Assembly: GCA_950022655.1 (NCBI GenBank)
Contig: OX465580.1
Span: forward strand, 4,325,122 to 4,389,121
DNA length: 64,000 bases
Direction of reading: 5' to 3'
Origin: Alentia gelatinosa
Lineage: Eukaryota > Annelida > Polychaeta > Phyllodocida > Polynoidae
Shown here: piece by piece, positions 20,247-60,560 of the stretch
How positions within the stretch are numbered: position 1 is the first letter of the stretch
Layout: the number at the start of each line of letters is the position of its first letter
Translations under genes and position numbers: made by a program
The notes under the pieces: model-generated
Told to the model about the DNA's origin: nothing
Database searches by the model: none
What the model saw: the letters and a program-made list of their open reading frames with translations, nothing else

Positions 20247-20281
20247 AGGAAAAGGTTGATCTGGAAAAGAGACTTAAGAAA

Positions 20282-29285: not shown

Positions 29286-29426
29286 TCAGACAATGTCAAC
29301 CCGCTGAGGTGACCTGGGACGTGTGATTCCGGGGAAAAAGTAAAATGGATGGAAAAGACCTGATTCTACGCAGGGCAGCTGCTTCTCTCGGATACCAGCA
29401 CCTTCAGTGGCAACACATCTCCTCAC
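29286..29426 (-). CDS. Caspase exon 12 (terminal, end of p10)
   Basis: Acceptor ATTCCAG precedes 29426. 47 codons ending in TGA at 29288-29286. It reads VRRCVATEGAGIREKQLPC and then LFHPFYFFPG, the usual caspase p10 ending (KQ.PC...YFFPG). A possible poly(A) signal, AATAAA on minus, lies at 28834-28829. Confidence 0.9.
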   Translation of the reverse strand: MRRCVATEGAGIREKQLPCVESGLFHPFYFFPGITRPRSPQRVDIV

Positions 29427-32400
29427 CTGGAATATGAAGAAAAAACATATCAATCACAAATGTATGTAGATATATTGATAACTATATAGGGATCAGGTCA
29501 GTCGAGTGGTGGTGTGTTCCCTAGAGGATGAGGGGCACCAGTCCCTGCTGTGTGGTGGTTCGGGTGATTTTCAATCTAAATCGTCACATGGACAGGGAGA
29601 GTAGAAATAAACACGATTCTCCTACAAGCATTGAGATCACAATAAAAAAAAGCAGATGCAACACATGGTTTTACCAGACTAGACAAATAAGACTAACAAG
29701 GTTACAAGACTAGACAGATAATAAAAATACAAATACAAACAAGACAAAGGTATAGCAGTAATCTCAACTAGATTTAGGCATATAATTTGCACAGTGTTCA
29801 AGACACAGGACTGGTATCTCCCGGAAGTAGTTTGTGGGCAATCACATCTCCTCAACTGCCTCAACATTACCCTTTTTCAAAACTGCCTTAACCTTATCTC
29901 TATTTCTCACGTGATTCATACTCAAGGGCAAAGCATCCCATAGAAGCTTACCACTGTACAACGGGGACTTCCTAAACAGCTCGGTATTAGGCCTTTTCAG
30001 TTTTAGCTTTACTTTCCCAGTGTTACTGGTGGTTTGTATACTATCCCATACCACATTATCCTCCTTACTCACCCACCAATGTACAAAAGATAGGATTTGG
30101 ATAGTTCCTCTCTCATCCATTGGTTACACATATAATCTCATTAATAAGCCAGATTACTTTCAGTAACATAACTTAAACTATATTTAGTAACATGTATTTG
30201 GGTCATAGGCCCAAGTTGTTATAGGATTCAATTAGATGTAGGATTTAGTGTGGCATATAGGATTTAGTGTATGAATCTCTCAATAAATAAATGAATAAAT
30301 CTGTGTTTCACCTCATCCATAAGTTCATTCAGGCTTTTGGTTGCTGCATGTTCCTTGAAGACTTGGACAAGGGCTTGAATGTATATGGTTCCAAGGTCAG
30401 CACAGTATGCAAAGGTCCCTAAAAGAGCAGATAAATATTCATCTCACTCCTGGTATATACTCCCCACATGATTTGAATGTACACATTTTTCCCTACATCA
30501 AAAAAACTGAGATGTCAGGGAGACTGAGTGCCCAAAGAAATTTAAAAACAACAAATATACTTCCCACATGGACTTAACATTGGGAGCTTGTATTTCCCTC
30601 GTTCCCATAGAGTAATGTAAAGTCATTCTCACTGGGCATGTACATCACAAACATTAGCCAATCAGTCATTGATAGGCATGAGATAAAATCTGAACCACGC
30701 ACATTGGGATTTACTATGTAATCTCATCCAGCTTTGCCTCGTGAGACTTCTCTACAACCAAAACTCTTGGCATATTTTAGCAGGTATCGATCTCAATGCA
30801 GTTCCGTAATTGTCTGAATATGAATGATGATATAATCTTGCTGAGTAATGTGCATGATTTGGACAAAGATTAGTGGTGCTGTTGCAGGCTGGCAAAATAA
30901 CAGCATCTGTCCACAATAACATAGTATCTATTCCACACCCCTTTAGAAACATTCTGTTTGATTATTTTGAATTGAAATGCAATTTTTTTTTTAAATTCAG
31001 GAAAAAAGACAATGCAGTTCACCGCATGTGGGCGTTTTTAAATGTTTGTCCAACAAAACAGATTTTACATAAGCCATTTATATAGGAATTCTTTTAGGCT
31101 ACAGCCTGTAATTCCGTTTACAGATCATTAGGTAAGGTCATAACAATTATGTTGTAATGGAGACTTTTACAGGACAATGATAGAGACTATGACAGGACAA
31201 TACAGGACATGCAAGACGGCACAAACAGTAAAACAATAAAACAATGTCATGTGTGGTGGTTGGTGGTTGGAGTGTTTTCTGTTCATAACCATAAATCTGG
31301 GTGTTAGTCCGGAAATAACTTTACCTGTAACTTGTACTGCGTATTCTCTATCAGTGATTGTGTGTTGTAAGGTAAGTTTTCCCATAGTTCTACTCCCTGG
31401 TATAAGGGGGGAGTTTTGGTATTTCTGGGTTTTAGGTCGGTCTAACTTAACATTTATTTTGTGATCCCTACGTGTTAGCTGCTTGTCTTTCACAATTATA
31501 TGTTCAGGGTCATGTGACCACCATAACATTAACATCACAAGCTGTACTAGCCATCTATACTTTAATGGTTTTACAAAAAAAAACAATTAAAAAAATTACG
31601 TTCTTAGTGTTACTATCAGGTGTGAATAGTAAGCTGAATGAATGATGACTCCAAGGCTTCGTCCTGTTACAAGTTTTATTGCTGATGTTACTGCAATGCG
31701 CTAAGCTGCTCGGACTGACGAGAATACATCGAGATCAGGATTATATGCTAGCTCCGTCTTACCATGTGGGGGCGACCCTCTTGATTATAACCAAGGGGGT
31801 CGGCTCCAGCGTTTTATTGCGTAGAGCCAGCTTGGTCAGTTAGGCCAAGGGATAGAATCTGTATGTGTCACATACTAGTGTTTTGGATCGTAACATTAGT
31901 ATATGTCAAGGGAAAAATACCTTCTTCACTTGCGAATCCTCTGTAGAAATGACATCCAACGGGAAAAACTTGTGTAGGCCCCCGTGTGTGCACTCTACCT
32001 GTCGAATGGGAATCATATGTTTTTCCCGGATGTTCGTTGGCTAAAAGCAAGAAACATAGAATTAAACATTCCTATTTTTATTTCAAATGGACATCGCTAG
32101 CCAATTGCAGATCAGCTTACGGCGGGCAGTAGTAACCACCAAACAATGAAAATATGGGGTACAACAGACCCCATAATTTACTGCACCCGGCTGTCTGCAA
32201 CGGGATGACGGTTTCTCGACATCGGGAATATATCCAACTAAATCTATGTATATACTGGATCAAAGAACAGCTGCCCATGCCTAATGGAAAATATAGTATG
32301 GCATGGCAGAACTGTCTGTTTTCCCGTAAAAAAAACCCAAATGGGAAAAGTCTGGAAGCCGATTGAAACCAGTGAGCTGTATCACTGACGGTATTATCCA

Positions 32401-35400
32401 CCTTTGGTGCTATGAATTGTAAAAAAAAAAATACATGTAAGTAACGTTTGTGACAATAAAGGAAAGTTTATAAAAAAAAAAAATAAAAAAAACAGAGCTT
32501 GTAAAGAGTTTGAGCTGTCAGTGATGTCAGTGACCGCGTCAATGGAATTCACAAAGTGGGATTCATGTACCTAACAGGGTTCAAAATGTAATGAGATTCT
32601 GTTCCTGTTTAGGTGTAAATGTTGCCATCAATTTCAGGAGAATAACATGTCTCAGGGAAATGAAACCCTAGAATTTAGAAGAAGAAATTATGTCCAGGTA
32701 CAGAATCTCAGCAGGATTTGTCTCAGAGAAACACCACTATATGAGGTACATGAATCACATCATGTGAATCCGAATCTAGCATACACGCCTTTTCCACCTA
32801 CTCATTGTGAATAGATACTTAATGGGTTTTGCATCTACTGTGATCTTCATGAATGTATTTGTAATGGTCACCGATTCGGGTATTTAATCCAACCTTTGGC
32901 TCGAATAAGAGAAACCGTGGTTACTTAGCCCGTACGGGTGGCCATTCGAGGTCATTTGATGCAAAAAATGTTGCTTCAAATGACAGACAACGTCTCTGAA
33001 CTCACGAATGGGTAGAGAACAACCTTGACATGCTCTCATGGACAACGTGAGAAATTTCGATAGTGATCCAAAACGTTGGTCACAGAGGGTGCGAACATTC
33101 AGTGGGTAGGATTTCATAAATCTTCACTCACAGGTTCCCCACGAAAGTACAATGTATGCTTGTATAAGGCCCGGCGTTCACCTACTATGATATGGCTCTG
33201 AAATGGTCTACGATGGTCGTATGATCTATGATATGGATTTTGTATTGTAGGGTCTCTACAATATTTAAACATGTTTAAATGAAGGTGGCTAATTGGGAGC
33301 ATTACAGAGTATTCTATCCGAAATATTCCTAAATAATAATGTATCATATATCTAAAAATGGAGATAACAACGCAGAATATGCACTCATATCCTGGTTGTA
33401 ATGTGGGGTATTTATTTTTTATTTTACTGATCAACCGCTTACGATTTGTGGTGAATTGGCATGTCTAGACATATGTCTACGATTTTGCACCTTCCCGATA
33501 CGTCTCCGATATTTGCTTTTTGTATCGGTGCCATATCAGTAGGTCTAAATTTCTATCGTAGTAGGTGGATGCCAGGCTTTATTGTTCCTCGTTTGTATGA
33601 TTTATTCCCTTTTCACAGTTTGATTTATGTGGCTACCTACCTCCTCGACAGGCTTGAGAGAAGATCAGCTTGGGTTTTTCCATCAGCAAATCAAGATCCA
33701 TAACATTCTCCAGCGTTTTAATCCTCACAAAACGCCCATCTGCCCCCATAATGATATCTCTACGTTGTAGCCTGTCCAGGTCCAATTCTGCTTCTCCATC
33801 TCTGGCCTGTTGTGTGAAGGTTTGAGAGCCATGACTGAGGAGAATCAGCACAGCACACTGCGATGTAGCACCAACCTCTGTTTTGAAAAACTCCTTAACA
33901 TTCCTTTCGATACCCTACATGTGTGAGAAAAGATTTAAACATTATTATCAGATACTGCACCCATTGCAGTATGTATTTACTCTGACTTTGTGCATAGGTA
34001 TATAATAATATCAGATACTGCACCTAATGATATTTCACATTAGCTCTCCTGCATTTTGAGTATAGAAACATTAAAGAAAATGAACATGGTTGACTCCAAA
34101 GATTTAAGAAAGTGCATACTAGGAAAACACTGTCTCCAATAAAAACCAAACACATAGAAACCCGCGTAAGCCTACACCCTCTGTTCCGGGCCAAAGTGTC
34201 CACTTAAGTGGGATTCATACGATGGGACAAATGTACCTGAGACTGGTGTACTTCACACCTTTGCACCAGTCAGCTACTATTTCCAGCTGTGTACAAAGTT
34301 TCACAGATTGGGGTGTTCGACAGTCTCAGGGTAACATGGCGGATTCAATTCACATGGGAAGACTTACCAGGTACATAGTCTCATCCCTACACCCCTACAC
34401 AGGGTACACAGGGAAAACAGGGTGCACATTTTCCGACTCAGGGCACTTCCCTGTGTGAATAGGTATTATTTGGGAGCACTGGGACTCACAGATTGGGGGA
34501 GAACGTGTGAAGTACATTTGTCTCACCAAAATGCCCCTCTAAATTTTAAACCAGTTTAAAGTAAAAATCTCATGAGATTCTGTTCCTTGTTAGGGGTGAT
34601 TGTCGCGAACAATTGCAAGGGGAAAATGTTGTCTCAGCAAAATGGAACCCTGTCATTCAGACGAGGAGATTGTGTTCCAGTACAGATCCGTTTCGAGCAA
34701 AGGTGTCAACACGGGGTGTCCGTTTCTACTGTACACAAATCTCTCAGACAAACACAACAAAACACAAGGAGAAAAAACGAACACAACACCCCTACCCAGA
34801 GCAGACACCTTACAAAAACAAAAAAACAATAGAAATAAATAGGAGAAGAAAAACCAAAACCAAAACAACCAATAATAATATCATGTGAAATCATAGTTAG
34901 GTGGTGAAAATACAGGCTAGATTTATGAGTTGTCTCCTATAAATTCATTCAGAACTCGTTGTAAATAGCTCGTTCTGAATGAATTTATCAACAGTACTAA
35001 AGAAGAAACAAGTTTTGGTCAAAGTCGTCGTTCTCTACGAGTTCGATGCGGTGTGATATGAACGAGGCGACAGCTGAGTGAATATCACATAGCATTCAAA
35101 CGAGTTGGAGAATGACTTCTTTGACCAAAACGAGTTGCTTTCTGTATTTATCTCACCCCTGCATATACTAAAGGAATAGGCAACAAAGAGGATATAGACC
35201 ATGGAGAACGGACTGCAATATTTAAAGGGGAATGGAGAACGAGATCGCAATGGTACAATGGGTAAATTCTTACAAATATCTAGGTGTCATCCTCGACCAG
35301 AACATGTCATATAAATCTCATATTGACAGTATTTGCAGCCAAGCATCACATAAGCTATATCTCCTGAACAAAATCAGACCGTACTTAACCGAACATGCTT

Positions 35401-38400: not shown

Positions 38401-41400
38401 TCATCGTTTGTTGCATTTATTATCCATCTTTTCGAATAAATTAAACCAAGTAATTCCCATATGAAAGGGTATGAAAATAGGGACTATTTTGTTGCTTTAT
38501 AGCAAAAGGGACTATTTTTCCGTACACCATGGTTTTGAGGCCGTATACCACAGGTGTGAATCCGAATACTACAGTTATAGTATCTGACAAGGTTTTATAC
38601 AATGGGTCGTGGGTATGTTTTCAATGGGGGATTTGTATACGATGGATAATAAATAAGGCCACTAAAAAAAACTACCTGTTTCTCATCACCGCGCGCATCT
38701 GCAAAAACGATTTTTTTTTTGGGGTTAAAATAAGATGAACCTCGATAGAAATTATGAAAAGTATGTGTATTTGGTATCAAATTAAAGCTCCCCATGCCAG
38801 GGATGCTTTCAATGTATAAGCAGTATAAATCTGAAACCCAGCGTATGCAGACACCCTGAATAAGCAGACATTTTGGCCCGAAACGGAGGGTGACGGCTTA
38901 CGCAGGGTTTTACTGTATGTGTAAAGCGCATTTTATGACACTTTTAAGCCATCTTTGATCCAGCAAAAAAAACAAAAAAAAGCGCCCTCATCATATTTTT
39001 CATGGCCTAGTGATGAGAAGCAAGGTTTATTTTTGAGTGGCCTAAGAGGAAAGGATACACACCTCTGCAGTGAGATCATGAACATTATGGCGAACTTCTA
39101 CTTTGAAGTGGAGTTGCGTAAACAAGTCTTTGAGACGTATCCAGTCTGCGCCAATGCCTGAAGGATCGTCCGCAAATCCAACATTAATGATGAGACAGGG
39201 TCCGCGAGGCTCCAGATGCATCGGGTAAGCCTGAAATTCACACAGATTAAAACGAATAAGGTTTTGATTTTATCCTACCCCCTGTGAACGATATTTTTAT
39301 GTGAGGATAATAACAAAAAACACGATAAAAACTTTCTGAAGTCCTCCATATAGCTCTCCTTGCTGCTCTGAAGGCGCTTGGAACTACTTTCAGCTGCTGA
39401 TTTCTGATTGGTTCATTTTTTGTATGCTCCTAGGAGCGATTTTTTATCCGTATGCGACATACGGGCGCATACGGAAAGTCAATGTTAAGCCTATGGGATT
39501 TTATATCAGGGGTAGGATAAATTGCGAAGATGCAAAATCGTAGACATTTATATATCTAGAAATGCCAATCCACCACGCATCGCAAGGGGTCTTTTTTGGT
39601 GCCTAATCGCAGAAAACGTGGTCAACTGTCCCGATATTAGGTGACCTTCCGACGCGATTTTGCATTTTTATCAGGAGGTACATCGTAGACCATATCGGAG
39701 CCATATCATAGTAGGTAGACCCTGGGCCTAACTACACTTGCAAGACTAGGAGCAAATACTATGATCATCAGCAGGCAATTATGCATGAATACATTCAGTC
39801 TATGGATAGTTTTCTGTAACCCAATTGCACCCAGTCAACTTGTTCTTTCTACAACTGCCGGATAATATAGAGGAAACCCATGAAAGTTTAGGGTCTGAGC
39901 CCGTATCCCATCGAGTTTGAATCACGTAGTAATTCACAAGGCGAAGCCGCGTGAATTGCTATGTGATTCAAATGAGATGGGATCGAGCTCTGACCCCAAA
40001 CTTGAATGGGTTTCTGAATTTATCTCACCCTTAATATTGACTAATGGGCTAACATTTGTGGCATCATCCCCCATTGGATATATTTCCTAAATATCTAATG
40101 GATGTTAGATACGAGTTTCCAATGTTAAGTCTATGGAGAAAAAATATCTGGGGTGAGATAAAAATATATCTATAATATCTATAAATTATATTCATAAAAA
40201 AACTTTTTTTCAGGAATCGGTCGCGTTCCGAATACGGCTGCATGCTTCGTCCTCTACCATATCTATAAATTATACTTATAAATATGTCATTTAATCTATA
40301 GGGCACATAGCTATTATGCTATGGAGGCGGCAATCTTGCCCCCCCCCCCTGCCATCCAAAACAGGGTTCTATCAATTTTTTAATTTAAATTTTTTTTTTT
40401 GGGGGGGGGGGGGGGGTTGCCATGGAGGAATTTTAGCATTGTCTCAATATCATCTACAGATTATGACAGCAGATATATAATAGTGGTCGCCCTCAAACTA
40501 CAATGGCGCTATCATACGATTTCCTGACGGCTAATGGCACCACTAGCAATCACTCTGTGCCCTATATTGTTATCAGTAATTAGGGTTCAACAACTGGGTA
40601 AATATCATTACCTCTCCTTTGTGTGAATCATAAAACTGTCCATCAGACGTCCTCACAGGTTGAGACTTGTCATACAATGTAAGTTCTTCCCTTGCTCCGG
40701 TTTCTGGATCATATATGTATAGAAATATTCATCAATATTTATGTTATTAATTGTCAGAGGGCGCCACTGGTGGATATTTTTATTAATGTAATACTATTTG
40801 TTTTGAAAAAAGATTCTTTTTTTACTTGTGGTAGCGTTACCGTGAGGTGACCACAGCCCCGTCAACCACACATCATATCTGTAATAATTATATCTTCGTG
40901 AGACGGGTTGTAGAACAAAAGGTTCGCAAGGTATCTTACATGACAAATATAACCTTGTGAAAAATATTTGGATGCTACAGGAATACTTATGACACTGTAG
41001 AGAAATTGAAACAATACTACTTTTTCTTCTTTAGAAAAGTTTTGTTTTTAATTTCCATTTCTTTTTGTAGCTATATCAGGTGATGGAATTAAAGAATTTG
41101 TCATCCCAAGATTCATTGAAGTTAGAGTAACAATCCAGGGAGCTGTTTCATTAGTTGAAAAAACTCTCGTAGTTGCTCTCACTAACCAAATGACGGCACC
41201 TCGCTAACAGCGAGCGGCACCTTGGACCAAAGCGGCACCAACAGTGGTAGTACCCGTTTCAATAGTTAGGCTCTGTAACTCCGCTAAGAATTCATGTAGA
41301 AGTGTCAAATAAAAACTGAAATGTGGGGGGAAATGCGAGGAATAATTTGGAATTATTAAATCATTCGATATATAGTGATTTATTAAATGTCTCGTTTGTT

Positions 41401-44400
41401 ATGGTGGCATAGCTAACAGCAGTGGGGTCTTAACAGCGACGCCAGTTCTGAAACGAAACCTTAGAACTCTCGATTTTAATGCCGTTGATTGCTCACGCTT
41501 TGGCGGTGGCCATTCCCGTTTACTTCTCCCCAGCTTTTGAAACAGGTTTGTTTTGCTGCACCTGTCACCAATTTGTGTTGTGCATTATACCTACCACCAG
41601 ATGGGATGTTAGAATCCCCTCCATCTCTTTGATCAACTCTCCCCTTCGGGCCTGTAATATGAAAACCTAAAGTCAGCATCTCCTGTCAATCGAGGTTAAT
41701 TATGACAAGACCGGACTGACAGTTAAAACACTTTATTACAGTTAAAAGTTTTAAGAAGAGAAAGGATAAATGACAAAATGGTAATCGAATAAAAGTCATA
41801 GTGAGATGTACATTATGTGACCTAAGAGGCCTTATTTACATGAATAGGCTTGTAAATGTGTGTTATAAAATAATAATGTAGGTAAGTAAGTATCACATGG
41901 AGAATACAAAGTTACAGGTTGATGATAGAAACATGTAAAAGGTGTGGGAGGGTGGGTAATGAAAAACGTCTGACCCGGGTGAAAAGTGTATCGCAATACA
42001 GGTGTTGCCGTTCAGCGCCGCCTAACGGCCCACTGTCTCGAAACGCGGCCGCTCGGACAAACACCGCGAGTCTGGCAGTTTTCATATAAAGATATACAGC
42101 AATCACACCTAAAGTGTAAACGGTGGGTGTGATTGCAGTAGTGTTGGTTTTGGACAGATTGGACTGCTAGAACAATAAAAGGCATTGTATCAACCAGTCT
42201 GGACTATCAAAACTTTATAGTTGAGAATAGTTTTCGTTTTAATTTGGAGAAAGATAAGCATATGGTAGCTAGGCCTCACAATGTATTAATGTGTATTCAA
42301 TTTCGGTGATCCTATGTTATCTATGCTACATCTAAAGTATTATTGAGGCAATATGCAGTATGACACATGTGATTTGAGCTGGCTTATCTCTCTATGACTC
42401 GCTATTGTTCTCAAGTTCCCGTTTTTGTCACCAGGGCGGCACCACAGTAGCAGCAGGTAGATTTAACCACAAGAAATCATAGAACTTAAATTCCAACTGT
42501 TCTGAGTAGGTTTTTAATTAGGGAACACAGCTAAATACATAAGCAGGGCCTGGTTAACAGAGAACATTTTTGAAACTCTGACTTTTCACAGGTGAACCCC
42601 CCAAAATCAGTCATTTCTCTGTGGCACCCCCATCTAAAGTCACCCAAACTCTGCCAATTGTTTGGACTCTCCCAGAAGGGCTAGGAATATAATCTCAACT
42701 GTTCTGAGTAGCTTCCACATTGGGGAAGACAGCTAAATACATAAGCAGGGCCTGGTTAACAGGGAACATTTTTGAAACTCTGACTTTTCACAGGTGAACC
42801 CCCCAAAATCAGTCATTTCTCTGTGGCGCCCCCATCTAAAGTCACCCAAACTCTTCCAATTGTTTGGACTCTCCCAGAAGGGCTAGGAATATAATCTCAA
42901 CTGTTCTGAGTAGCTTCCACATTGGGGAAGACAGCTAAATACATGAGCAGGGCCTGGTTAACAGGAAAATTTTTGAAACTCTGACTTTTCACAGGTGAAC
43001 CCCCCAAAATCAGTCATTTCTCTGTGGCGCCCCCATCTAAAGTCACCCAAACTCTGCCAATTGTTTGGACTCTCCCAGAAGGGCTAGGAATATAATCTCA
43101 ACTGTTCTGAGTAGCTTCCACATTGGGGAAGACAGCTAAATACATGAGCAGGGCCTGGTTAACAGGGAACATTTTTGAAACTCTGACTTTTCACAGGTGA
43201 ACCCCCCAAAATCAGTCATTTCTCTGTGGCGCCCCGATCTAAAGTCACCCAAACTCTGCCAATTGTTTGGACTCTCCCAGAAGGGCTAGGAATATAATTT
43301 TAACTGTTCTGAGTAGCTTCCACATTGGGGAAGACAGCTAAATACATGAGCAGGGCCTGGTTAACAGGGAACATTTTTGAAACTCTGACTTTTCACAGGT
43401 GAACCCCCCAAAATCGGTCATTTCTCTGTGGCGCCCCCATCTAAAGTCACCCAAACTCTGCCAATTGTTTGGACTCTCCCAGAAGGGCTAGGAATATAAT
43501 CTCAACTGTTCTGAGTAGCTTCCACATTGGGTAAGACAGCTAAATACATAAGCAGGGCCTGGTTAACAGAGAACATTTTTGAAACTCTGACTTTTCACAG
43601 GTGAACCCCCCAAAATCAGTCATTTCTCTGTTGCGCCCCCATCTAAAGTCACCCAAACTCTGCCAATTGTTTGGACTCTCCCAGAAGAGCTAGGAATATA
43701 ATTCCAACTGTTCTGAGTAGCTTCCAAATTGGGGAAGACAGCTAAATACATAAGCAGGGCCTGGTTAACAGGGAACATTTTTGAAACTCTGACTTTTCAC
43801 AGGTGAACCCCCCAAAATCAGTCATTTCTCTGTGGCACCCCCATCTAAAGTCACCCAAACTCTGCCAATTGTTTGGACTCTCCCAGAAAGGCTAGGAATA
43901 TAATCTCAACTGTTCTGAGTAGCTTCCACATTGGGGAAGACAGCTAAATACATGAGCAGGGCCTGGTTAACAGGGAACATTTTTGAAACTCTGACTTTTC
44001 ACAGGTGAACCCCCCAAAATCAGTCATTTCTCTGTGGTGCCCCCATCTAAAGTCACCCAAACTCTGCCAATTGTTTGGACTCTCCCAGAAGGGCTAGGAA
44101 TATAATCTCAACTGTTCTGAGTAGCTTCCACATTGGGGAAGACAGCTAAATACATAAGCAGGGCCTGGTTAACAGGGAACATTTTTGAAACTCTGACTTT
44201 TCACAGGTGAACCCCCCAAAATCAGTCATTTCTCTGTGGCGCCCCGATCTAAAGTCACCCAAACTCTGCCAATTGTTTGGACTCTCCCAGAAGAGCTAGG
44301 AATATAATTCCAACTGTTCTGAGTAGCTTCCACATTGGGGAAGACAGCTAAATACATAAGCAGGGCCTGGTTAACAGGGAACATTTTTGAAACTCTGACT

Positions 44401-50400: not shown

Positions 50401-53400
50401 TAGGATGTAGGATGTGGGGATGCATGGATGTAGGGATGTAGGGATGTGGGAAAGTAGGATGTAGGATAAATGGATGTGGAGATGTGGGGATGTAGGATGT
50501 GGGGATGTAGGCTGTAGGGATGTATGGATGTATTGATGTGGAGATGTGGGGATGTAGAATGTAGGGATGTAGGATGTAGGGTAGTATAGTGGAGGGGCAG
50601 TATGGTAGAGGGGCAGTATGGCGAAGGGGCAGTATGGTGGAGGGGCAGTATAGTGGAGGGGCAGTGTAGTAGAGGGGCAGTATGGGAAAGGGGTAGTATG
50701 GTGGAGGGGCAGTATGATAGAGGGACAGTATGGTGGCGGGGCAGTATGGTGGAGGGGCAGTATGATGGAGGGGCAGCATGGTGGAAGGACAGCATGGTAG
50801 AGGGGCAGTATGGTGGAGAGGTAGCATGGTGGAGGGGCAGTGTGGTGGAGGGGCAGTGTAGTAGAGGGGCAATATAGTAGAGGGGACAGTATGGTGGAGG
50901 GGCAGTATGGTGGAGGGACAGTATGGTGGAGGGGCAGTATGGTGGAGGGGTTGTATGGTAGAGGTTTAGTATGGTGGAGAGACAGTATGGTGGAGGGACA
51001 GTATGGTGGAGGGGCAGTATGGTTGAGGGACAGTATGGTGGAGGGACAGTAGGCCTATAGGTGGCGGGGTAGTATGGCAGAGGGGCAGTATGGGCCCCAG
51101 GTGTCAAGAATGCTAGTTCATAAATTTACCACTGGGGAACCAAAAGTTGTGCTTCATTGACACTAGGGGCGCCACTAGAAGTCTGGTAGTTCCACAAAAC
51201 GCCACTAGGAGATGTTGAATGCAGCCGAGTCGGACACATCACAGAACAAACACAGAGATAAGCTAGGTTTCCTATCCATAGTGTATAGGTCCGTGCCCAT
51301 ATTCATTATTACTGCGGAGAGTGATAACACACTCTCAACGGCCAGTAGTCCGCTACAAATCGTTTTTGACAAAGAATAATGGAGTAACATTAATGAAATC
51401 TTCACAGAATGTATGTATAATACCCTTATTATTATTTCCATTCAAATATTTAAGATTATATATCATATCACGTGATTAAACAATTGAATTGTGGGTTTTA
51501 ACGACTGTGTGCCCGTCCCCTAGCGGTATAAAGTGCCACCAGCCCCCGTCCTCCAGGTGGTAGGTTGGCCACAGGCACCCATCCTCCATCAAGCCAGTTT
51601 GTTGTTGTCTTGTCTTTGAATAGGCCTCGACAGATGAGTATAGCAGATGAGTATTAGCTCCATTTTCAACTCTTTTTTTTTTTTTTAAGACTTTTGTTTA
51701 TACTGGTTAGGGCTCAGCCCCAAGGAACTGGTCTCAACGCTCTACCAGTTTCTTTTTAGTACAATTTCTCCTTGTTTTTTTGGCGCTATGACGCAACATA
51801 TATATATAACAGTTGGTAACAATAACAATATAAGCAGAGCAATTATAGATTATACATTCTAATATCCGATGTTATGGTATAGAGCACATCTCATGGAGGG
51901 CCGGACCGGACTGACCTTCACTATATCAAGTTAAGATTGTCACTCTTCAGAAGTTCTCTCATAGTTTACATGTGACTTCCCCTCATAGTTTACATGTGAC
52001 CATCCCTCATAGTTTACATGTGACTTCCCCTCATAGCTTACATGTGACTTCCCCTCATAGCTTACATGTACTATCCCTCATAGCTTACATGTACTATCCC
52101 TCATAGTTTACATGTGACTATCCCTCATAGTTTACATGTGACTATCCCTCATAGTTTACATGTGACTATCCCTCATAGTTTACATGTGACTATCCTTCGT
52201 AGTTTACATGTGACTATCCCTCATAGTTTACATGTGACTATCCCTCATAGTTTACATGTGACTATCCCTCGTAGTTTACCTGTTACTATCCCTCGTAGTT
52301 TACATGTAACTATCCTTCGTGGTTTACATGTTATTATCCCTCATAGTTTACATGTGACTTCCCCTCATAGTTTACATGTGACCATCCCTCATAGTTTACA
52401 TGTGACTATCCCTCATAGTTTACATGTGACTTCCCCTCATAGCTTACATGTGACTTCCCCTCATAGCTTACATGTACTATCCCTCATAGTTTACATGTGA
52501 CTATCCCTCATAGTTTACATGTAACTATCCCTCATAGTTTACATGTGACTATCCCTCATAGTTTACATGTAACTATCCCTCATAGTTTACATGTTACTAT
52601 CCCTCGTAGTTTACATGTAACTATCCTTCGTGGTTTACATGTTACTATCCCTCATAGTTTACAGGTATGCAGGTTGATAGAAAGTCTTTTACCCAATCAT
52701 TAGTAGAACTTACCAGCACTTTGGCCTTCCTTGCATTTCCCTTGCTGGAGTTTAGGAGTGACTGCAGAAACGTGCTTGGTTGTGGTTGATGAAGTGGAGG
52801 TGGGTGCCTGTGAAGGGGCACTCTCTTCTGAGTGTGCTGCCTGTGGACCTTGTTCTGTGAATGCCGATCCTGCGGCAGTGGGTGGAGACAAATATGGGTG
52901 TTTAGAGCCATGGAAGATGGGACAGAAGTAGGACATATAGATTATGTACTTACTAGAATGGTATCATTATTACAGTACTGAGAAATAACATTTCATTTCA
53001 AATATTTAGTTTTTTGGTATTTTGACTCTTTCACAATGTTTATTTTTTAGTTTTGAGCATAGCACTCTTTATTTTCATTATTTTCCCAAAGATTGTGTTA
53101 TACATGCGACTATCCCTCATAGTTTACATGTGACTATCCATCATAGTTTACATGTTACTATCCCTCGTAGTTTGACGTGTATTTGATATGAATTACGTAA
53201 TTACCTTGCTCTTATTGTATGAACTGGCTCTATTCTTGTATTTTTTTTGTTTTAATCACAATATCGGAACCATGCATATATATATAGCATGATGATTTAC
53301 AGTATAGGGCACATGTCTCTTGTATGTGATAAGTACTCTGTATTGTACTGTCTTTGTTTACCAACCTCTTTCACGATGTTATAGAAAGTTCATGGTAATA

Positions 53401-56400
53401 TTTGGTTATGACTTAATTGTCTGTTTAGATCCCAATGAAATTTTTATTTTAAAAAAAGCAGGCAAGATTTACCAAATATCTTCCAGCATGCCTTGTTTAA
53501 CATCACTTACCTCCAGATTGAGCACTAGAATCACCTGCAACCTTTTTTTTATTCTTGGAATCTGTAATACGAAAATCCAAAGTTACAATCTACGGAAAAT
53601 TTAAAGTGCTTAATGTTGTTAATATCTTTTATCTAATACCAAGAGTCTATTCTTTGATTTATTTGATTTACGGATGGGCATCAACTTCAAAAGCTTTTAA
53701 ATCTAAAGCCTGAATCCCGCTAAGAGATTTTGGGGCATGTCCAAGGCTTCCGTCAGTGATTAAATGTACACACATTAATAGGAATATGCCATATTGCAAA
53801 GTGTGACTGCAAAAATGCAAAATCATTTAACCCTTTAAGGACGGCTGCCTGGGGCCTAGCTACTCCCATAAGGACGGGTGCTGGTGGCAGTTTGTCTAGC
53901 TAGAGGACGGCCACAGAATAGTTAAAACTAATATCCTAGTTTGAAATCATACAATATGATAAATAATGATAAATATTTTATTTATTTTTGATAGAAATAT
54001 TAAATATGATGTTATATCTACATTTCCTGAAGATTTCATGAATATTGCTCTATTATTTCTTTGTTGAAACATTTTTGTTAATATTGGGACAATGATGCCT
54101 CAAGGTTTCATGCGTCTTTAGTGCGGTGATGCCTCTGGGCATCATGCGTCTTTAGTGCGGTGATGCCTCCAGGCATCATGCGTCCTTAGCACGGTGATGC
54201 CTCCAGGCATCATGCGTCCTTAAAGGGTTAATTCTGTTGCCCTGCTACCAGTGGTGCAGGCATGAGTCACTAACTTGAATACATTAAAAAAAGGCACTAA
54301 CCTCTTGCAATTTGATTTGAAATGTTTAGGCCGCTAGCGAATCAAGGGCCCGTTTAATAATTACAGCTCATACGTGAAGACCCTTTTCTGGGCCCTAAGG
54401 TGATACAGAGAGGATGAGGGTCCACTTTAATGAACACTTATGGACGACCTCATGGACGGCTAGTACTGTCTTAGCGAACGGATTTTGATATTATGTTTAC
54501 GCAGACGTGGCGTTGGTGTTGGCGACTACTGAGGAAGTGATCTGTATCACGATGTCCCGGCGCGTTCCGGGTCCCGTGGTTGACACCGTTTCGAAGAACC
54601 TTGTTTCTCATTGGTTTATATGAGTGTTTGACCTCTGACCCCGTATGTGACTGGCTACATAGCTCCCGGCGGTGGCGGGAACGGTTCATTGACCAATCTG
54701 TGGTGGGGTTCTATATGGTATTGGGAGTGTATCACTAGGGGTGTGTACTAGGGGATTTTGATATTATTAAACGATAATCCTTGTATGAGGTACAGACAAG
54801 GGTCTTCATGTACGATCCTAGATTATTAAATGGACCCAAGGCCTATGAAGTAGGTTCCATACACAGGTTTACCTAGCATCTCCTTCTGGTTACGGATGTA
54901 TTCCATTGTAAGTTCCATCACATCAGTCACGATGTGCGTCTGACCAATTTCATCCACAACAAGGCAGAAATTCAGAAATCTAGGAACAGGGTTGATGAGA
55001 ATTCCATCCAGAATTATTCTCTTCTTGTTGCGAGGAGTGATCTTGTCAGCCTGAAATATTAAAAGTAGTTTCCAGCATTTTTGCATCATTCTAACCATAG
55101 AAATTGGATCTTTTTTATTAACGCTGTCAGATTTTGGTAATGGTTCAGCCATTTCCAGACGAGGGGATGTCATACTGCCCCAAATTAAATGTACAAAATT
55201 AACTCAAGATAGCCCTAAATCTGTTGCACAGTATATTCCTTTGTAAATCGTCTACCTGTGCTTTCAAATCTTGGTGGCAGCATACATTCGGAAGATCTCG
55301 TCATACAGTGTATATGATGAAATTGCCCATGCTATAATATTCACTTTTTCCAGAATACACTTTCCCAGAATTAGGTCTGCTGGGGTGGCCAGCAATAACC
55401 AATCTGCTCACCTTCTTGGTCGCCTCACCTCCTCTTGGTGCAGACCAGATATGCTTGCATTCAAGCATAACAAAAGTGACTGGGGTGGGGAGTTAGCTCA
55501 GTGGTTAAGAGCACTGGACTGTAGTCCCAAGGTTTTAAGACTTTTTTGATTGAAGTCCCACTGCAGCCACTTTTCTCTTTCACCCCCAGCAGTGGTAGAT
55601 TTATTCCTATATCAAAGTCCTTCTCATACCATGTCTATGTGGTGTGCGAAGTAAAAGAACTCTCATCTCGGTAAATGTGTAGGGGTGAGATTTCTACCTG
55701 AACTCATCACATAGATTCTATCACCACCCTCGTGGCGTAAAAGAACCTTGACAAAGTCTGGTAAGCACCTATAATAGTTGACTGGACGTTAAATCAAACT
55801 AAACAAACAAATTCCAGAAAACTATTCCATGTTCACTATGTAGTGATTGATGGGTGGTTTGCTTCTCTCTCGGCAGAGGGTGTGTCATACCAAATTGTGT
55901 CGCTTTTACAAAATGTGTGCTGTACACTGGCTCAACCTTATGGAATAATTTACAACCAGTAACTAGAAATATCGAGACTTACAATATGTTTAAGAAGGTA
56001 TCGAAACAAGGTCTGGAAAACTTGATCCCAAGGGTCAATCAATTGTATGCTTATTGATATCATGTCAGATTGATCTATATTGACGTTTGAGCAGGTTGTT
56101 GAATAATTATAATTTTAGATCTCACTCACCAACAAATCGTCCTTGACATCGTCATCTGTCACACCATGCTTGTAGAGTAAAGCATACAAAGTCTCACCCA
56201 GACCTGTATAAAAAAAAAACAGATGAGGTTTAGCTCTGGAGATTGAAAGGGTGTTAAAGAAATATCACTAATAATGTGTATGAACAATATTTATCTAGTA
56301 TTGATTTAGGATCAACAGGTTAATAATACTGAATAATTCATTTTCATCGATTTATGATAATACCAATTTATAGAGTTGATTGTCTCAAATATCCAAAGGT

Positions 56401-56661
56401 TGACTAAAAGGAATTATGAAATAAGATTATTGATGTGATTATCATCTTATTTTTGGATCTAGGAAAACAACACTGCACTTTACTAAAGATTACATAGTTA
56501 GTGCATGGAAAGGTGAGCTGCCAGGGGCTCCAGGAGTTACACCTGTGTACAAGTCTTCATGTTTCAAATGGGCATTAATCAGGGCACTTACTTAGTCGCT
56601 TGTAAATCTTGTCCCGATAATCTTTTATGAGTTGTTCTACCTTGGTGTCAGTCAAATCCAT
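29286..56661 (-). CDS. CARD-containing initiator-type caspase, 12 exons (whole gene)
   Basis: Twelve minus-strand exons join with matching phases into 1446 nt, 481 codons plus stop. ATG at 56661 has A at -3 and G at +4, and an in-frame TAA four codons upstream. Residues 1-97 form a CARD (helical, with LYALLYKHGVTDDDV, then NKKRIILDGI and IGQTHIVTDVM), which recruits caspases to activating platforms. 108-226 is a Ser/Thr/Gly-rich linker. p20 starts about 227 (YPMHLEPRGPCLIINVG) and holds His310 (LLSHG) and Cys371 (QACRG), the catalytic pair. p10 contains GFASEEG then TFAYCADLGTIYIQALVQVF, and ends KQLPC...FYFFPG. By eye the two S1-pocket arginines are replaced: Pro249 and Cys405. The His-Cys interval is about 61 residues, longer than in common caspases. 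Only about 9 residues, without Asp, separate p20 from p10, unless an exon was missed. Product: cysteine protease of cell death or innate signalling; substrate preference is uncertain. Confidence 0.92.
29842..30120 (-). pseudogene. LINE reverse transcriptase C-terminal fragment (caspase intron 11)
   Basis: It reads KLKLKRPNTELFRKSPLYSG and then KLLWDALPLSMNHVRNRDKV, matching the generic end of CR1/L2-type ORF2 proteins (RPKT..YRKSPLYRG...WN.LP). It lies on the same strand as the caspase gene, between exons 12 and 11. Confidence 0.6.
30312..30418 (-). CDS. Caspase exon 11 (p10 core)
   Basis: Acceptor CTCTTTTAG, donor GTGAAA; phase 1 in, phase 0 out. It encodes TFAYCADLGTIYIQALVQVF and KEHAATKSLNELMDE, aligned with the caspase p10 segment (YVAYR-D-x-x-GSWFIQALC). 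Cys405 falls where caspases have the S1-pocket Arg. Confidence 0.92.
31167..31586 (-). pseudogene. LINE reverse transcriptase C-terminal fragment (caspase intron 10)
   Basis: RRDHKINVKLDRPKTQKYQN followed by SPLIPGSRTMGKL and TDREYAVQV resembles the end of CR1/L2-type ORF2 proteins. Upstream coding is not recognisable; probably a 5'-truncated old insertion. Confidence 0.5.
31921..31998 (-). CDS. Caspase exon 10 (p20/p10 junction)
   Basis: Acceptor CATTCGACAG before 31998, donor GTATTT after 31921; phase 1 in and out. It encodes RVHTRGPTQVFPVGCHFYRG and FASEE. The last part aligns with the caspase DFLxAYATVPG strand. No Asp lies in this exon, so a conventional self-cleavage site between p20 and p10 is not visible. 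It is the least family-like exon, but phase and position fit. Confidence 0.72.
32575..32710. repeat. Dispersed repeat, copy in caspase intron 9
   Basis: ATGAGATTCTGTTCCTG and the following about 100 bp resemble 34571-34690 (ATGAGATTCTGTTCCTTG ... GTCTCAG ... GTCCAGTACAG-like words). Diverged and without coding. Confidence 0.55.
33166..33579. repeat. TIR element, CACCTACTAYGATA family (diverged copy)
   Basis: The ends AAGGCCCGGCGTTCACCTAC and (reversed) AAGCCTGGCATCCACCTAC are inverted copies continuing through TACTATGATA. Same family as 36563-37285 and the partial copy near 39530-39725. Lies in caspase intron 9. Confidence 0.7.
33641..33914 (-). CDS. Caspase exon 9 (p20 with catalytic His and Cys)
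   Basis: Acceptor ACATGTAG, donor GTAGGT; phase 0 in, phase 1 out. It encodes GIERNVKEFFKTEVGATSQ, CAVLILLSHGSQ (His310), a longer than usual segment with QRRDIIMGADGRFVRI, and PKLIFSQACRG (Cys371, with the Gln and Arg of the pentapeptide). This exon alone identifies the family. Confidence 0.95.
34940..35143. repeat. Two adjacent hairpins
   Basis: Arms 34940-34958 and 34971-34987 (TAAATTCATTCAGAAC and its inverse), then arms 35001-35035 and 35108-35143 (AACAAGTTTTGGTCAAAG and its inverse). Followed by TTTATCTCACCCC (35147-35159), the terminal word of the 14291 foldback family. Located in caspase intron 8, just upstream of a LINE fragment. Confidence 0.65.
35232..35855 (+). pseudogene. 5'-truncated LINE, reverse transcriptase C-terminus (CR1/L2-like)
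   Basis: A single open frame of 207 codons: NSYKYLGVILDQNMSYKSHI, SHKLYLLNKIRPYL, MILPTIDYGDILYANC, RRFSHTVIHMY, AYHGAQKWNNLPTNLR, FKLLQKS. These are the post-palm and thumb regions of a CR1/L2-group ORF2; the catalytic core is missing. A 3' UTR follows to an A run at about 36182-36191, after AATAAATAAACG. The long uninterrupted frame suggests a fairly recent insertion into caspase intron 8, opposite in orientation to the gene. It resembles the C-terminus of the 4923 element (YGDILYD). Confidence 0.88.
36563..37285. mobile_element. TIR element with CTAA target duplication
   Basis: Terminal inverted repeats of about 27 bp: GCCGGCCCCCACCTACCACG at the left (from 36565) and its inverse at the right. 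CTAA lies immediately outside both ends (36559-36562 and 37286-37289). 723 bp with no transposase frame, so a non-autonomous DNA element in caspase intron 8. Confidence 0.82.
37649..37670. repeat. 22-bp perfect palindrome of TCGCGATA units
   Basis: TCGCGATATCGCGATATCGC plus GA reads the same on both strands. It lies 55 bp upstream of the Crypton-like start codon. Palindromes of this kind can bind dimeric proteins; nothing here proves it. Confidence 0.75.
37725..38042 (+). pseudogene. Crypton-like (DUF3504-type) N-terminal fragment
   Basis: 105 codons from ATG at 37725. The first half is acidic (TIDLDDIIFDIQEDITVEKT). The second part (KINREAGIFKSWLLESKEYR, DIETIP) resembles the opening of the DUF3504/Crypton tyrosine-recombinase-like proteins of animals, where an FxxWL...RDIExIPP stretch precedes the catalytic core. 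The core is not seen. From about 38022 the frame runs into a hairpin and ends. Family assignment is from memory of the motif and moderate. Confidence 0.5.
38022..38103. repeat. Hairpin interrupting the Crypton-like frame
   Basis: The main arms are 38030-38055 and 38070-38095 (GTTAGTTTACTAAACC and its inverse, one mismatch). Weaker pairing extends them outward to CCGAAC/GTTCGG. The hairpin supplies the stop codon of the preceding frame. Confidence 0.8.
38265..38650 (+). repeat. Dispersed repeat with foldback, copy 2
   Basis: Same element as 24130-24545. The hairpin at about 38278-38404 has longer matching arms here (GGTTGACGCGTAGTAATA and its inverse) around GAGCGCTAGCG, followed by the shared GTTTGTTGCATTTATTATCC tail. 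In caspase intron 8. Confidence 0.82.
38654..39045. repeat. TIR/foldback element beside caspase exon 8
   Basis: Arms 38654-38690 and 39009-39045 are inverted copies (TAAGGCCACTAAAAAAAAC; reversed right end TTAGGCCACTCAAAAATAA, both continuing to TTCTCATCAC). A second palindrome, 38834-38910 (AAACCCAGCGTATGC and inverse, with CACCCT), is nested inside. The element ends 18 bp from the splice donor side of exon 8. Confidence 0.75.
39063..39230 (-). CDS. Caspase exon 8 (start of p20)
   Basis: Acceptor GAATTTCAG, donor GTGTGT; phase 0 both ends, 56 codons. Reads AYPMHLEPRGPCLIINVG, then FADDPSGIGADWIRLKDLF, then TQLHFKVEVRHNVHDLTAE. This is the caspase opening (PRG.cLIIN...G.D...L..lF..L.F.V). 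Pro249 sits where other caspases have the first S1-pocket Arg (R-T/S-G pattern, here PSG). Confidence 0.95.
39530..39725. repeat. Partial copy of the CACCTACTAYGATA TIR family
   Basis: The right end, read in reverse, gives AGGGTCTACCTACTATGATA and continues like 33166. The left part (GCAAAATCGTAGACAT) resembles internal sequence of 33166-33579. The left terminus is not found. Confidence 0.55.
39868..40163 (-). repeat. Foldback element, copy B (inverted relative to 14291)
   Basis: Same 296-bp length as 14291-14586 but reversed. Hairpin at 39873-40014 and terminus GGGGTGAGATAAAA at 40150-40163. In caspase intron 7. Confidence 0.82.
40339..40416. repeat. Poly-C and T/G homopolymer tracts
   Basis: C run at 40339-40349; T then G runs at 40391-40416. 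These are difficult to sequence, so lengths may be unreliable. Confidence 0.8.
40612..40703 (-). CDS. Caspase exon 7 (linker before p20)
   Basis: Acceptor TATGATCCAG, donor GTAATG; phase 1 in, phase 0 out. Encodes TGAREELTLYDKSQPVRTSD and GQFYDSHKGE. Its junction gives HKGE then AYPMHL at the caspase start. The YDKSQ and YDSHKGE stretches resemble the segment preceding p20 in initiator caspases. Confidence 0.85.
41138..41280. repeat. Degenerate MITE, GGGAGCTGTTTC family
   Basis: GGGAGCTGTTTCATTAGTTG, followed by GCGGCACC words as in 26097-26215. A GCTTTTGAAACAG near 41533-41545 may be its far end. In caspase intron 6. Confidence 0.5.
41595..41651 (-). CDS. Caspase exon 6 (linker)
   Basis: Acceptor CATATTACAG, donor GTAGGT; phase 1 in and out. 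Encodes PKGRVDQRDGGDSNIPSG, a Gly/Ser/Asp-rich linker. Exon and upstream intron edge resemble exon 4, suggesting internal duplication. Confidence 0.78.
41700..42489. other. Intron 5 sequence before the satellite, unassigned
   Basis: No coding. ATTCACACC-type inverted words around 42105-42134 form a weak hairpin. Not otherwise recognised. Confidence 0.35.
42490..49720 (+). repeat. 202-bp satellite array with higher-order structure (caspase intron 5)
   Basis: About 36 head-to-tail units of about 202 bp, each with GCAGGGCCTGGTTAACAG, TTCACAGGTGAACCCCCC, TCTCTGTGGCGCCCCCATC and GGGGAAGACAGCTAAATAC. Variant patterns repeat at multiples of the unit: 44965 and 46379 differ by 1414 bp (7 units), and the block near 47380-48389 is repeated at 48390-49399 (1010 bp, 5 units). 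A diverged subtype with GGCGCCATCATC and GGCCTGATTGA occurs inside each 1010-bp block. No long open frame is conserved. Confidence 0.95.
49722..50317 (+). repeat. ACATCC minisatellite, plus orientation
   Basis: Irregular units of CCYACATCC/CATACATCC. Two fragments of the 202-bp satellite are embedded (about 49895-49950, CCCCAAAATCAGTCATTTC). The long Thr/Pro/His/Ile frames on either strand are repeat artefacts. Confidence 0.9.
50318..50580 (-). repeat. ACATCC minisatellite, inverted half
   Basis: The same units continue on the opposite strand (GGATGTATGGATGTAGGG). The switch is at the palindrome ATCCTAGGAT, 50311-50320. Confidence 0.9.
50581..51095 (+). repeat. 16-bp GGGGCAGTATGGTGGA minisatellite
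   Basis: About 32 units of 16 bp with single-base variants. It abuts the inverted ACATCC block directly. Confidence 0.92.
51655..51960. other. T-run and unassigned intron sequence
   Basis: A T run at 51670-51685 followed by AAGACTTTTGTTTATACTGG resembles the start of the foldback at 60745 (AAGGTTTTTATTTATACTGG), so a related element end may lie here. Confidence 0.4.
51965..52668 (+). repeat. 24-bp minisatellite TATCCCTCATAGTTTACATG
   Basis: About 29 units of about 24 bp (unit adds TGAC). Because 24 is divisible by 3, long frames of repeated IPHSLHVT appear; I regard them as artefacts. Three further units lie at 53105-53172, on the other side of caspase exon 5. The array ends 45 bp from that exon. 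Confidence 0.93.
52714..52869 (-). CDS. Caspase exon 5 (Ser/Thr/Pro-rich linker)
   Basis: Acceptor CCACTGCCGCAG before 52869, donor GTAAGT after 52714; phase 1 in and out, 52 codons. Reads SAFTEQGPQAAHSEESAPSQ, then APTSTSSTTTKHVSAVTPK and LQQGKCKEGQSA. Low complexity, as between CARD and p20 of initiator caspases. Confidence 0.8.
53511..53561 (-). CDS. Caspase exon 4 (linker)
   Basis: Acceptor GTATTACAG, donor GTAAGT; phase 1 in and out, 51 nt. Encodes SKNKKKVAGDSSAQSG. It resembles exon 6 in length, phase, the ending (GDS..xxSGG) and the preceding intron edge. Confidence 0.78.
53831..54227. mobile_element. piggyBac-like MITE with TTAA duplication
   Basis: TTAA at 53827-53830 and 54228-54231 flanks inverted ends CCCTTTAAGGACG and CGTCCTTAAAGGG. 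Inside are about four 34-bp units with GATGCCTCCAGGCATC-type cores (54090-54215). No transposase frame. In caspase intron 3. Confidence 0.85.
54347..54836. mobile_element. TIR element with CAAG flanks
   Basis: About 40-bp inverted ends: GGCCCGTTTAATAATTACAG at left, and reversed right GGTCCATTTAATAATCTAGG, both continuing to TGAAGACCCTT. CAAG lies outside both (54343-54346, 54837-54840). In caspase intron 3, 36 bp from exon 3. Confidence 0.8.
54873..55050 (-). CDS. Caspase exon 3 (second half of CARD)
   Basis: Acceptor AATATTTCAG, donor GTAAAC; phase 0 in, phase 1 out. Reads ADKITPRNKKRIILDGILIN, then PVPRFLNFCLVVDEIGQTHI, then VTDVMELTMEYIRNQKEML. Matches the CARD pattern of basic helix 4, a Pro-containing turn, then a helix leading to a GQ-H-L/I motif. 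Confidence 0.9.
55480..55811 (+). repeat. tRNA-derived SINE
   Basis: A box TAGCTCAGTGG at 55494 and B box GATTGAAGTCC at about 55547 mark a tRNA-like head (GTGGTTAAGAGCACTGGACT). A body of about 230 bp follows, ending GGACGTTAAATCAAACTAAAC and AAACAAA. The layout is that of an RNA polymerase III SINE. It lies in caspase intron 2 on the opposite strand. Confidence 0.82.
55854..56057 (+). pseudogene. LINE ORF2 C-terminal scrap
   Basis: YTGSTLWNNLQPVTRNIETY and NMFKKVSKQGLENL match the usual last residues of CR1/L2-type ORF2 (LWNSLP..IR....FKK.LK). Only this end is present. Confidence 0.5.
56130..56203 (-). CDS. Caspase exon 2 (CARD helices 2-3)
   Basis: Acceptor TTTTTATACAG, donor GTGAGT; phase 1 in, phase 0 out. 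Encodes LGETLYALLYKHGVTDDDVK and DDLL, with the CARD-typical LL...GVLT-like turn followed by acidic residues. Confidence 0.9.
56592..56661 (-). CDS. Caspase exon 1 (start codon, CARD helix 1)
   Basis: ATG at 56661 in the context GAACAATGG, with TAA in frame four codons upstream. Donor GTAAGT after 56592; phase 1 out. Encodes MDLTDTKVEQLIKDYRDKIY and KRL. Confidence 0.9.
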
Positions 56662-58879: not shown

Positions 58880-60560
58880 TATTAAGTGGAAAAGAGCTCA
58901 GAAAACAGGTAATGTAGAAGACTGGAAACAGGCAAAAACACTTAGAAATAGCGCTAAAAGACTAATTCAAAATGCGAAAAGGGATTATATTACTAGTTGC
59001 ACCACAAAAGATAGTAAAAAATTCTGGATGAGCATGGAGACACTAATAAGATCAAAGAAAAAGTTGTCTACGATTAAAATTACAGACCCCAAGAGTAGAC
59101 CTAAAGAGCAGACCTAAAAGATAATGAAGTGGCTGATCATGTTAACCAATTCTTCTCGTCTACAGGTAGCAAACTAGCCGACAAATTTGATAAGCCATGG
59201 GAAGATGATACTGATGAGACTAAAGCTCTCATGTATGATATTGAAATCTCAGTGGAAGATGTCATTGAAGCGATAAAACAAATTGACATAAAAAAAGCTT
59301 CCAGTATCAAATATGTGTCGTCTGAAATCCTTAGGGACGGGTTCCTCGTTTTACACAGACAACTCCTTTGCTTATTCCGATGCTCTGTCAGAAAAGAAAT
59401 TTTTCCTACAGCATGGAAACATGCATTAGTGGTACCCTTAATGAAAACTAGCTTTAATAACGATGCTGGTAATCACTGATCTCACTGATCAAAACTGAAT
59501 AATATGAACAATGGTGAGATAACCCTAACCACCTTCTTAGATCTAACCAAAGCCTTTGATATGGTCAATCATGAAATATTGATATATAAAATGAAGAAGT
59601 TAGGCATATCCGAACAATTAGTTAACTGGAGCAAAAATTACCTAATAGGTCGATCCCAAAGCACTCTAGCTCACAATGTCTTATCTCAAGCAGAGATCAT
59701 TAACTGCGGAGTACCCCAGGGATCAATTCTTGGACCCCTTTACTTCCTAATGTTCATTAATAATATTGATAGCTCATTGCAACATTGCTCGGTCAATCTT
59801 TATGCAGATGATGCTGTAATAGTAACCTCGGAGCTGATGTCGATAAATTAATAAAGCAAATGGAGACTGACACTCACAATATAAGCAGCTGGTGTGATAA
59901 TAACCGCCTAACAATCAATCCTAGAAAATCCAAAACTATGGTAGTTGGTACCAGCCAAAGGCTAAAAAGGCTACCAAAAATAGAAATCAGTCTAAAAAAT
60001 GATACACTGGAACAAGCCAAAACCTTTGATTATTTAGGGGTAACACTGGATAGCAACCTAACCTACACAAAGCACCTATCAAAAACAATACCTATCTAAA
60101 GAACAAGCTGTGTTAATTTATAAAGCAGGGGTATTGCCATACATAGAATATGCTGATATCATGTATCATAATACCAACGCAGGACTGTTGAGCAAATTAC
60201 AAAGATGTCAGAACAAAGGGCTACGGTTTTGCTGTAATGCAGTTCTTCCTTTGAATACTAACAAACTACATACTGTCTGCAAGATTAATAGGCTAGCCGA
60301 TCGGAGAGAAGCTAACTTGTTGAATACTGCGTTTGTAAGGTCCAAAAAGTGTGTTAGACTCCAAGAAGTAAACCGTAATACGAGACTACACGGAGCGCCG
60401 GTTTTGAGGGTTAGCAACAATATCAAATTACATAAATACTAGGATTCGGTAGAATTCAAGTCAGCCATGTACTGGAATGCCCTGAGTAAGGAGCAAAGAA
60501 ATGTTTTGGATAAGAATACCTTTAAGAGGCTCTTGAAGAAAAAACTCAAGGCTTGATTAA
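58880..60560 (+). pseudogene. CR1/L2-like LINE ORF2, 5'-truncated and internally deleted
   Basis: Begins at the pre-RT linker (NVEDWKQAKTLRNSAKRLIQ). Then fingers (ASSIKYVSSEILRDGFLVLH), palm A (TFLDLTKAFDMVNHEIL), B (GVPQGSILGPLYFLMFINNI), C YADD at 59801-59812, WCDNNRLTINPRKSKTMVVG, FDYLGVTLDSNLTYTKHL, VLPYIEYADIMYH and the C-terminus to about 60555. There is no endonuclease. About 60-70 residues are missing near 59480 (NDAGNH runs straight to MNNGEITLT), and several frameshifts occur (near 59110, 59850, 60100, 60440). Sequence differs from the 4923 element, so a separate family. Confidence 0.88.

Follow-up and report, generated by a model that had tools for sequence, protein, structure and literature searches.

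The window analysed here comprises 64,000 nucleotides of the polychaete Alentia gelatinosa (G000:C2:4325122-4389121 within a 1.23-Gb assembly) and carries on its minus strand, running from 56661 down to 29286, a gene of 12 exons, the 11 introns of which have GT-AG boundaries and compatible phases and the reading frame of which ends in a single terminal stop codon (Table 1). The spliced product, a caspase homologue, is 495 amino acids long. The twelve exons proposed in the first-pass annotation are thereby upheld, but its product of 481 amino acids falls 14 residues short, and our guess is that exon 10 had probably been started at an internal AG. A 13-exon model encoding 499 amino acids was also rejected, since its extra exon (30633-30722, minus strand) has a weak acceptor and proved to be an exon-like fragment of an interspersed repeat that has tens of relatives across the genome. 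Once this piece is dropped, the longer exon 10 joins exon 11, which matches the paralogue PARA2 without a gap. On passing from the 499- to the 495-residue model the score against caspase-7 (1shj) rises from 37.9 to 46.3 bits and that against Pfam from 109.7 to 113, and the score against caspase-9 (2ar9) is slightly lower (48.9 to 47.3). The 499-residue model or pieces of it served as queries for the protein-database, paralogue and exon-3 genome searches; the Pfam and PDB comparisons were redone with the 495-residue model.

Table 1. Exons of the caspase homologue and positions of its diagnostic motifs, in coordinates of the window.
Feature	Position	Strand	Content
Exon 1	56592..56661	-	Start codon, MDLTDTK...
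Exon 2	56130..56203	-	N-terminal CARD-like region (candidate)
Exon 3	54873..55050	-	N-terminal CARD-like region (candidate); kin exons elsewhere in the genome
Exon 4	53511..53561	-	Linker
Exon 5	52714..52869	-	Linker
Exon 6	41595..41651	-	Linker
Candidate extra linker exon	41460..41525	-	WPPPKREQSTALKSRVL; would give 13 exons and 514 aa
Exon 7	40612..40703	-	Linker as far as the start of p20
Exon 8	39063..39230	-	Start of p20; Pro249 instead of the first S1 arginine
Motif PSGIGAD	39144-39164	-	
Exon 9	33641..33914	-	p20 with His310 (LLSHG), Gln369 and Cys371 (QACRG)
Motif LLSHG	33828-33842	-	
Motif QACRG	33642-33656	-	
Exon 10	31921..32040	-	Linker between p20 and p10, then the first strand of p10 (PVGCHFYRGFASEE); a single Asp
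Exon 11	30312..30418	-	p10 with Cys419 (FAYC) instead of the second S1 arginine; 107 nt
Motif FAYCAD	30396-30413	-	
Exon 12	29286..29426	-	End of p10 (KQLPCVESGLFHPFYFFPG) and stop codon

The block encoding the candidate extra linker exon resembles the WPPA linker block of Mytilus and Aplysia caspases; its addition requires an intron of about 65 nt and leaves the active site unaffected. Tandem arrays occupy 42494-49720, 50579-51051 and 51958-52663 in the intron that separates exons 5 and 6, comprising 35.8 copies of a 202-bp unit together with 16- and 24-bp arrays. Long open reading frames, which by eye resemble pieces of non-LTR retrotransposons, lie in the window at 19394-23101, 35226-35852 and 59105-60439 on the plus strand and at 4926-7548 on the minus strand.

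The Pfam family Peptidase_C14 (PF00656) matches residues 236-478 of the product (E 2.3e-32), and in the PDB comparison caspase-9, caspase-7 and CED-3 score best among solved structures (E 1e-11 to 3e-11), with caspase-3 found as well. Both p20 and p10 are complete, being encoded by exons 8-12, and the alignment with caspase-7 spans residues 227-480. The catalytic His310 and Cys371, as claimed earlier, are present in LLSHG and QACRG on the minus strand, so that the protein differs from pseudocaspases of the cFLIP type, in which the catalytic residues are lost. The CARD that had been assigned to the N-terminal region is at most a candidate: exons 1-3 look CARD-like by eye and hhalign places this region in register with the CARDs of Aplysia and Mytilus, albeit weakly (E 0.008, probability 5%), but PF00619 gives no match to the 495-residue protein in the Pfam search, and among solved structures there is no death-fold match for the region. 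Matches resembling exon 3 occur at G000:C2:4420179, 4447330, 4557561 and 4602495, the top one being 63% identical, and among the matches listed none has a caspase domain beside it; these could possibly represent genes for a stand-alone N-terminal domain.

The P1 aspartate of caspase substrates is held by two arginines and one glutamine (PMC10967218), a role likewise ascribed to Arg341 (PMC11121540). In the product studied here Gln369 is kept, and the places of the arginines are taken by Pro249, lying in PSGIGAD as previously reported, and by a cysteine in FAYCAD, which is indeed where it had been placed but is numbered Cys419 rather than Cys405 in the 495-residue model. That both arginines are absent, as the first-pass annotation had proposed from an alignment by eye, is borne out in several ways. 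In a MAFFT alignment of paralogue segments (p20 from 13 and p10 from 14 of the 18 other caspase loci of the genome, together with Mytilus and Aplysia; some segments were taken from blast matches, and two exon pieces were joined by hand for C1:115M and C11:58M) all 15 other sequences have Arg in the Pro249 column, and 14 of 16 have it in the Cys419 column, where Mytilus P0001 and C15:3.96M carry Ser instead. Profiles made without the studied gene similarly set the proline and the cysteine on the two Arg positions. Between PVEADF and SWR the phmmer alignment with caspase-7 contains no gap, and Cys419 falls on the arginine of SWR. In p20 the phmmer alignments with caspase-7, caspase-9 and CED-3 show a shorter loop in the studied protein, the arginine of the solved caspases sitting in an insertion without counterpart, and for this reason the first arginine reads either as replaced by proline or as deleted, never as kept. 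The intron preceding the p10 segment is in phase 1 in the studied gene and in the paralogues PARA1-3, and since the p10 exon is 107 nt long both here and in PARA2 (110 nt in PARA1 and PARA3), Cys419 falls on the PARA2 arginine without a gap. When the 499-residue model was aligned, or when the first p10 strand was left out, the p10 Arg faced a gap or the adjacent Ala; in none of the alignments made does an arginine occupy either S1 place.

Three arginines were considered as substitutes in S1 and rejected. Arg258 of WIRLKD, which we take to be a helix position, is an unlikely stand-in, since relatives have Cys, His or Asn at this position in addition to the canonical Arg; Arg407 of HFYRG stands opposite a Phe in PARA1 and in caspase-7, outside S1; and Arg418, encoded by a split codon, existed only in the discarded 499-residue model. 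Nor does the DNA offer exons that would restore the arginines, for profiles made without the studied gene found, the PARA1 exons aside, no credible alternative p20 or p10 exon with an arginine in 118 kb: for p20 the runner-up is a 13-residue fragment on the opposite strand (E 0.012), and for p10 the runner-up, which has an Arg, reaches only E 2.4 and lies about 17 kb past the last exon. The p20 fragment, at about 14110-14151 (plus strand) of the window, appears to be the start of a decayed p20 exon (YPMHRVPRGLCLL).

The gene belongs to an expanded caspase family. A Pfam search of the genome gave at least 35 exon matches, which were grouped by position into the studied gene and 18 other loci (the grouping joins matches 22 kb apart at C1:125.1M, and at C2:3.8M a p10 match about 8 kb from the p20 exon with the catalytic Cys). 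At the p20 position all 17 readable loci of these 18 carry Arg, although in C15:3.96M it is read from a weak match (E 0.02); at the p10 position 15 of the 16 readable loci carry it, C15:3.96M (L032, KSFS) having Ser instead. Unreadable are the p20 residue of C6:48.23M and the p10 residues of C9:1.947M and C15:13.39M. Among the loci found, the studied gene is the sole readable one without the p20 Arg and the sole one without both, and within the reach of the genome search it is single-copy. The C9:1.947M locus carries a stop in its His exon.

A tandem paralogue, PARA1 (G000:C2:4274025-4283577, minus strand), lies about 70 kb downstream on the same strand, and is identical to the studied gene at 73 of 141 aligned residues. 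The two genes have in common their strand, the phase of the p10 intron, a long insert after the HG motif and QACRG, but PARA1 keeps both S1 arginines (ERKGTDID in p20, AFR in p10), has LAHG in place of LSHG and possesses an Asp-rich linker; neither CARD-like first exons nor a last exon of PARA1 were found in the stretch examined. Both arginines are likewise kept by PARA2 (L030, G000:C12:4.14M; TRTNTEKD/ALR) and PARA3 (L028, G000:C12:20.87M; EPRRGTDID/AHR). These two combine intact S1 arginines with altered catalytic motifs, QCCRG and LAHG in PARA2, and ESCAG (Gln to Glu) in PARA3. The codons of Pro249 and Cys419 are CCT and TGT, each a single base change from the CGT found at both places in PARA1.

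Judged by columns in which the other sequences reach 90% identity or more, a cut-off below which the p10 Arg column (14/16) falls and is not counted, the studied gene keeps 12 of 14 near-invariant positions, the losses being the p20 Arg and a change of GS to GT that is also present in Aplysia; the His, SHG, QACRG and the KPK block are all kept. By the same test PARA1, PARA2 and PARA3 each score 13/14, and C15:13.39M scores 9/14, so on this measure the gene is slightly below its nearest kin in conservation but not uniquely eroded. The p20-p10 linker contains one Asp, as against 9, 8 and 6 in PARA1-3 respectively, and so poor a linker suggests that the usual Asp maturation sites have probably gone as well.

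We favour the reading, at a probability of about 0.45 and hence somewhat short of even odds, that the gene encodes a regulatory caspase homologue which would pair with arginine-keeping caspases. Because two arginines and a glutamine hold the P1 Asp, we would expect a pocket formed with Pro249 and Cys419 to fail to hold this residue, such that the protein would neither mature by cleavage at Asp nor cut normal caspase sites; with both arginines gone, cutting at the sites used by its relatives is probably lost. The protein would instead enter complexes via its N-terminal domain and there pair with arginine-keeping relatives, much as cFLIP-L, or in proposals caspase-12, modulate their partners. 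This regulatory reading is favoured by the intact 495-residue gene with its Pfam match and freedom from stops, by the missing arginines set against the Arg of the relatives and their Asp-richer linkers, and by the case of caspase-12. It is weakened by a dyad, SHG and QACRG that are fully canonical, indeed more so than the motifs of PARA1 (LAHG), PARA2 or PARA3, and that a pure regulator need not keep, and also by an N-terminal domain which is only CARD-like. PARA1 itself is an uncertain partner and may be incomplete, given the first and last exons not found.

The canonical core can, however, be read differently, and a real if lesser possibility is that the product still acts as a cysteine protease and that its S1 pocket (Pro249, Gln369, Cys419, Ser309) would accept an uncharged P1 residue and not Asp. 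The best argument for such a changed preference is the conjunction of an intact catalytic core with an Asp-poor linker; most near-invariant positions, too, were retained as the arginines and the linker Asp disappeared. Against it, no new partner in S1, whether charged or suitably shaped, is visible, and we know of no animal caspase with a proven non-acidic P1 preference. That catalysis was kept while S1 and the maturation linker were together freed from Asp, with cleavage after an uncharged residue beside a tandem copy still of the aspartate type, strikes us as less likely than not.

Alternatively, the S1 losses could simply be the early decay, under relaxed constraint, of a pseudogene in the making within an expanding family, a reading that we consider unlikely. 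The terminal branch of the gene (0.72 substitutions per site, in a tree of 151 columns with many weakly supported nodes) is nearly twice those of PARA1 (0.39) and PARA2 (0.41), its count of near-invariant positions is one lower than that of each of PARA1-3, one base change suffices for each arginine, and decay within the family is evident both in the p20 fragment of the window and in the stop-bearing C9:1.947M. Yet PARA3, with an equal branch (0.73), has both arginines, the catalytic residues are retained, and the 12 exons have intact splice sites and neither stop nor frameshift. The 495 codons are free of stops, against some 18 predicted for a branch that was neutral throughout, an expectation that applies the caspase-domain branch length of 0.72 to the entire protein; by this stop-codon estimate the neutral share of the branch is at most about 0.17 at P=0.05, and within that share a recent loss of function may be accommodated. 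Least of all can we credit that wrong exons or assembly errors mask normal arginines, for even though the 499-residue model had held a false exon derived from a repeat and the linker exons are provisional, both sites lie within well-bounded exons common to the paralogues, the residual profile matches in the 118 kb are as poor as described above, and two independent errors would be needed.

Specificity for Asp is the defining trait of caspases, and a gene that has kept the dyad and lost both arginines, near a paralogue that keeps them, constitutes a natural pair on the evolution of S1. The question posed by this pair is whether evolution can retarget S1 or whether an S1 that is lost invariably leaves a regulator. 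Were the changed-preference reading true, this would be a caspase freed of its dependence on aspartate, next to a tandem copy of the aspartate type. For the present, the gene product would be best termed a caspase homologue rather than a cysteine aspartase. Paracaspases and metacaspases also have the caspase fold without P1 specificity for Asp, but they carry acidic S1 residues suited to Arg or Lys, whereas none of Pro249, Gln369 and Cys419 is acidic.

The protein-database search yielded only three proteins, one of them a hypothetical STING-caspase protein, and no orthologue. The closest, Mytilus coruscus 'CASP2' (P0001), is similarly without the p10 arginine (SSS for SWR), but keeps the p20 arginine, has QACRE, and combines its caspase domain with a CARD that Pfam recognises. 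Caspases substituted in S1 have been published from mussels, namely caspase-2 and caspase-3/7-4 of M. galloprovincialis (PMC3037946), and many M. coruscus caspases have substitutions in the P1 pocket (PMC10967218), so that the loss seen here is not new in kind, and the question of retargeting applies to these mussel proteins as well. The text available from these two sources does not spell out a double arginine loss with an intact dyad, and in the portions of the literature covered we met no described case, although the alignment figure or supplement on M. coruscus may hold one. The executioners of M. galloprovincialis resemble the studied gene in keeping their catalytic residues despite the substituted pocket, but differ from it in that Arg179 is kept in all caspases of that species (PMC3037946). 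Caspases without the catalytic dyad exist in oysters (PMC7836458). Mouse caspase-12 was judged non-functional on its p10 residue, Arg341 being changed to Lys (PMC11121540). It shares with the studied gene the loss of the p10 S1 arginine in a full-length caspase, but the available account mentions one arginine only, with a basic replacement. In its general form, an S1 arginine lost from a caspase that is otherwise complete, the caspase-12 type of pseudocaspase is a known type to which the studied gene conforms.
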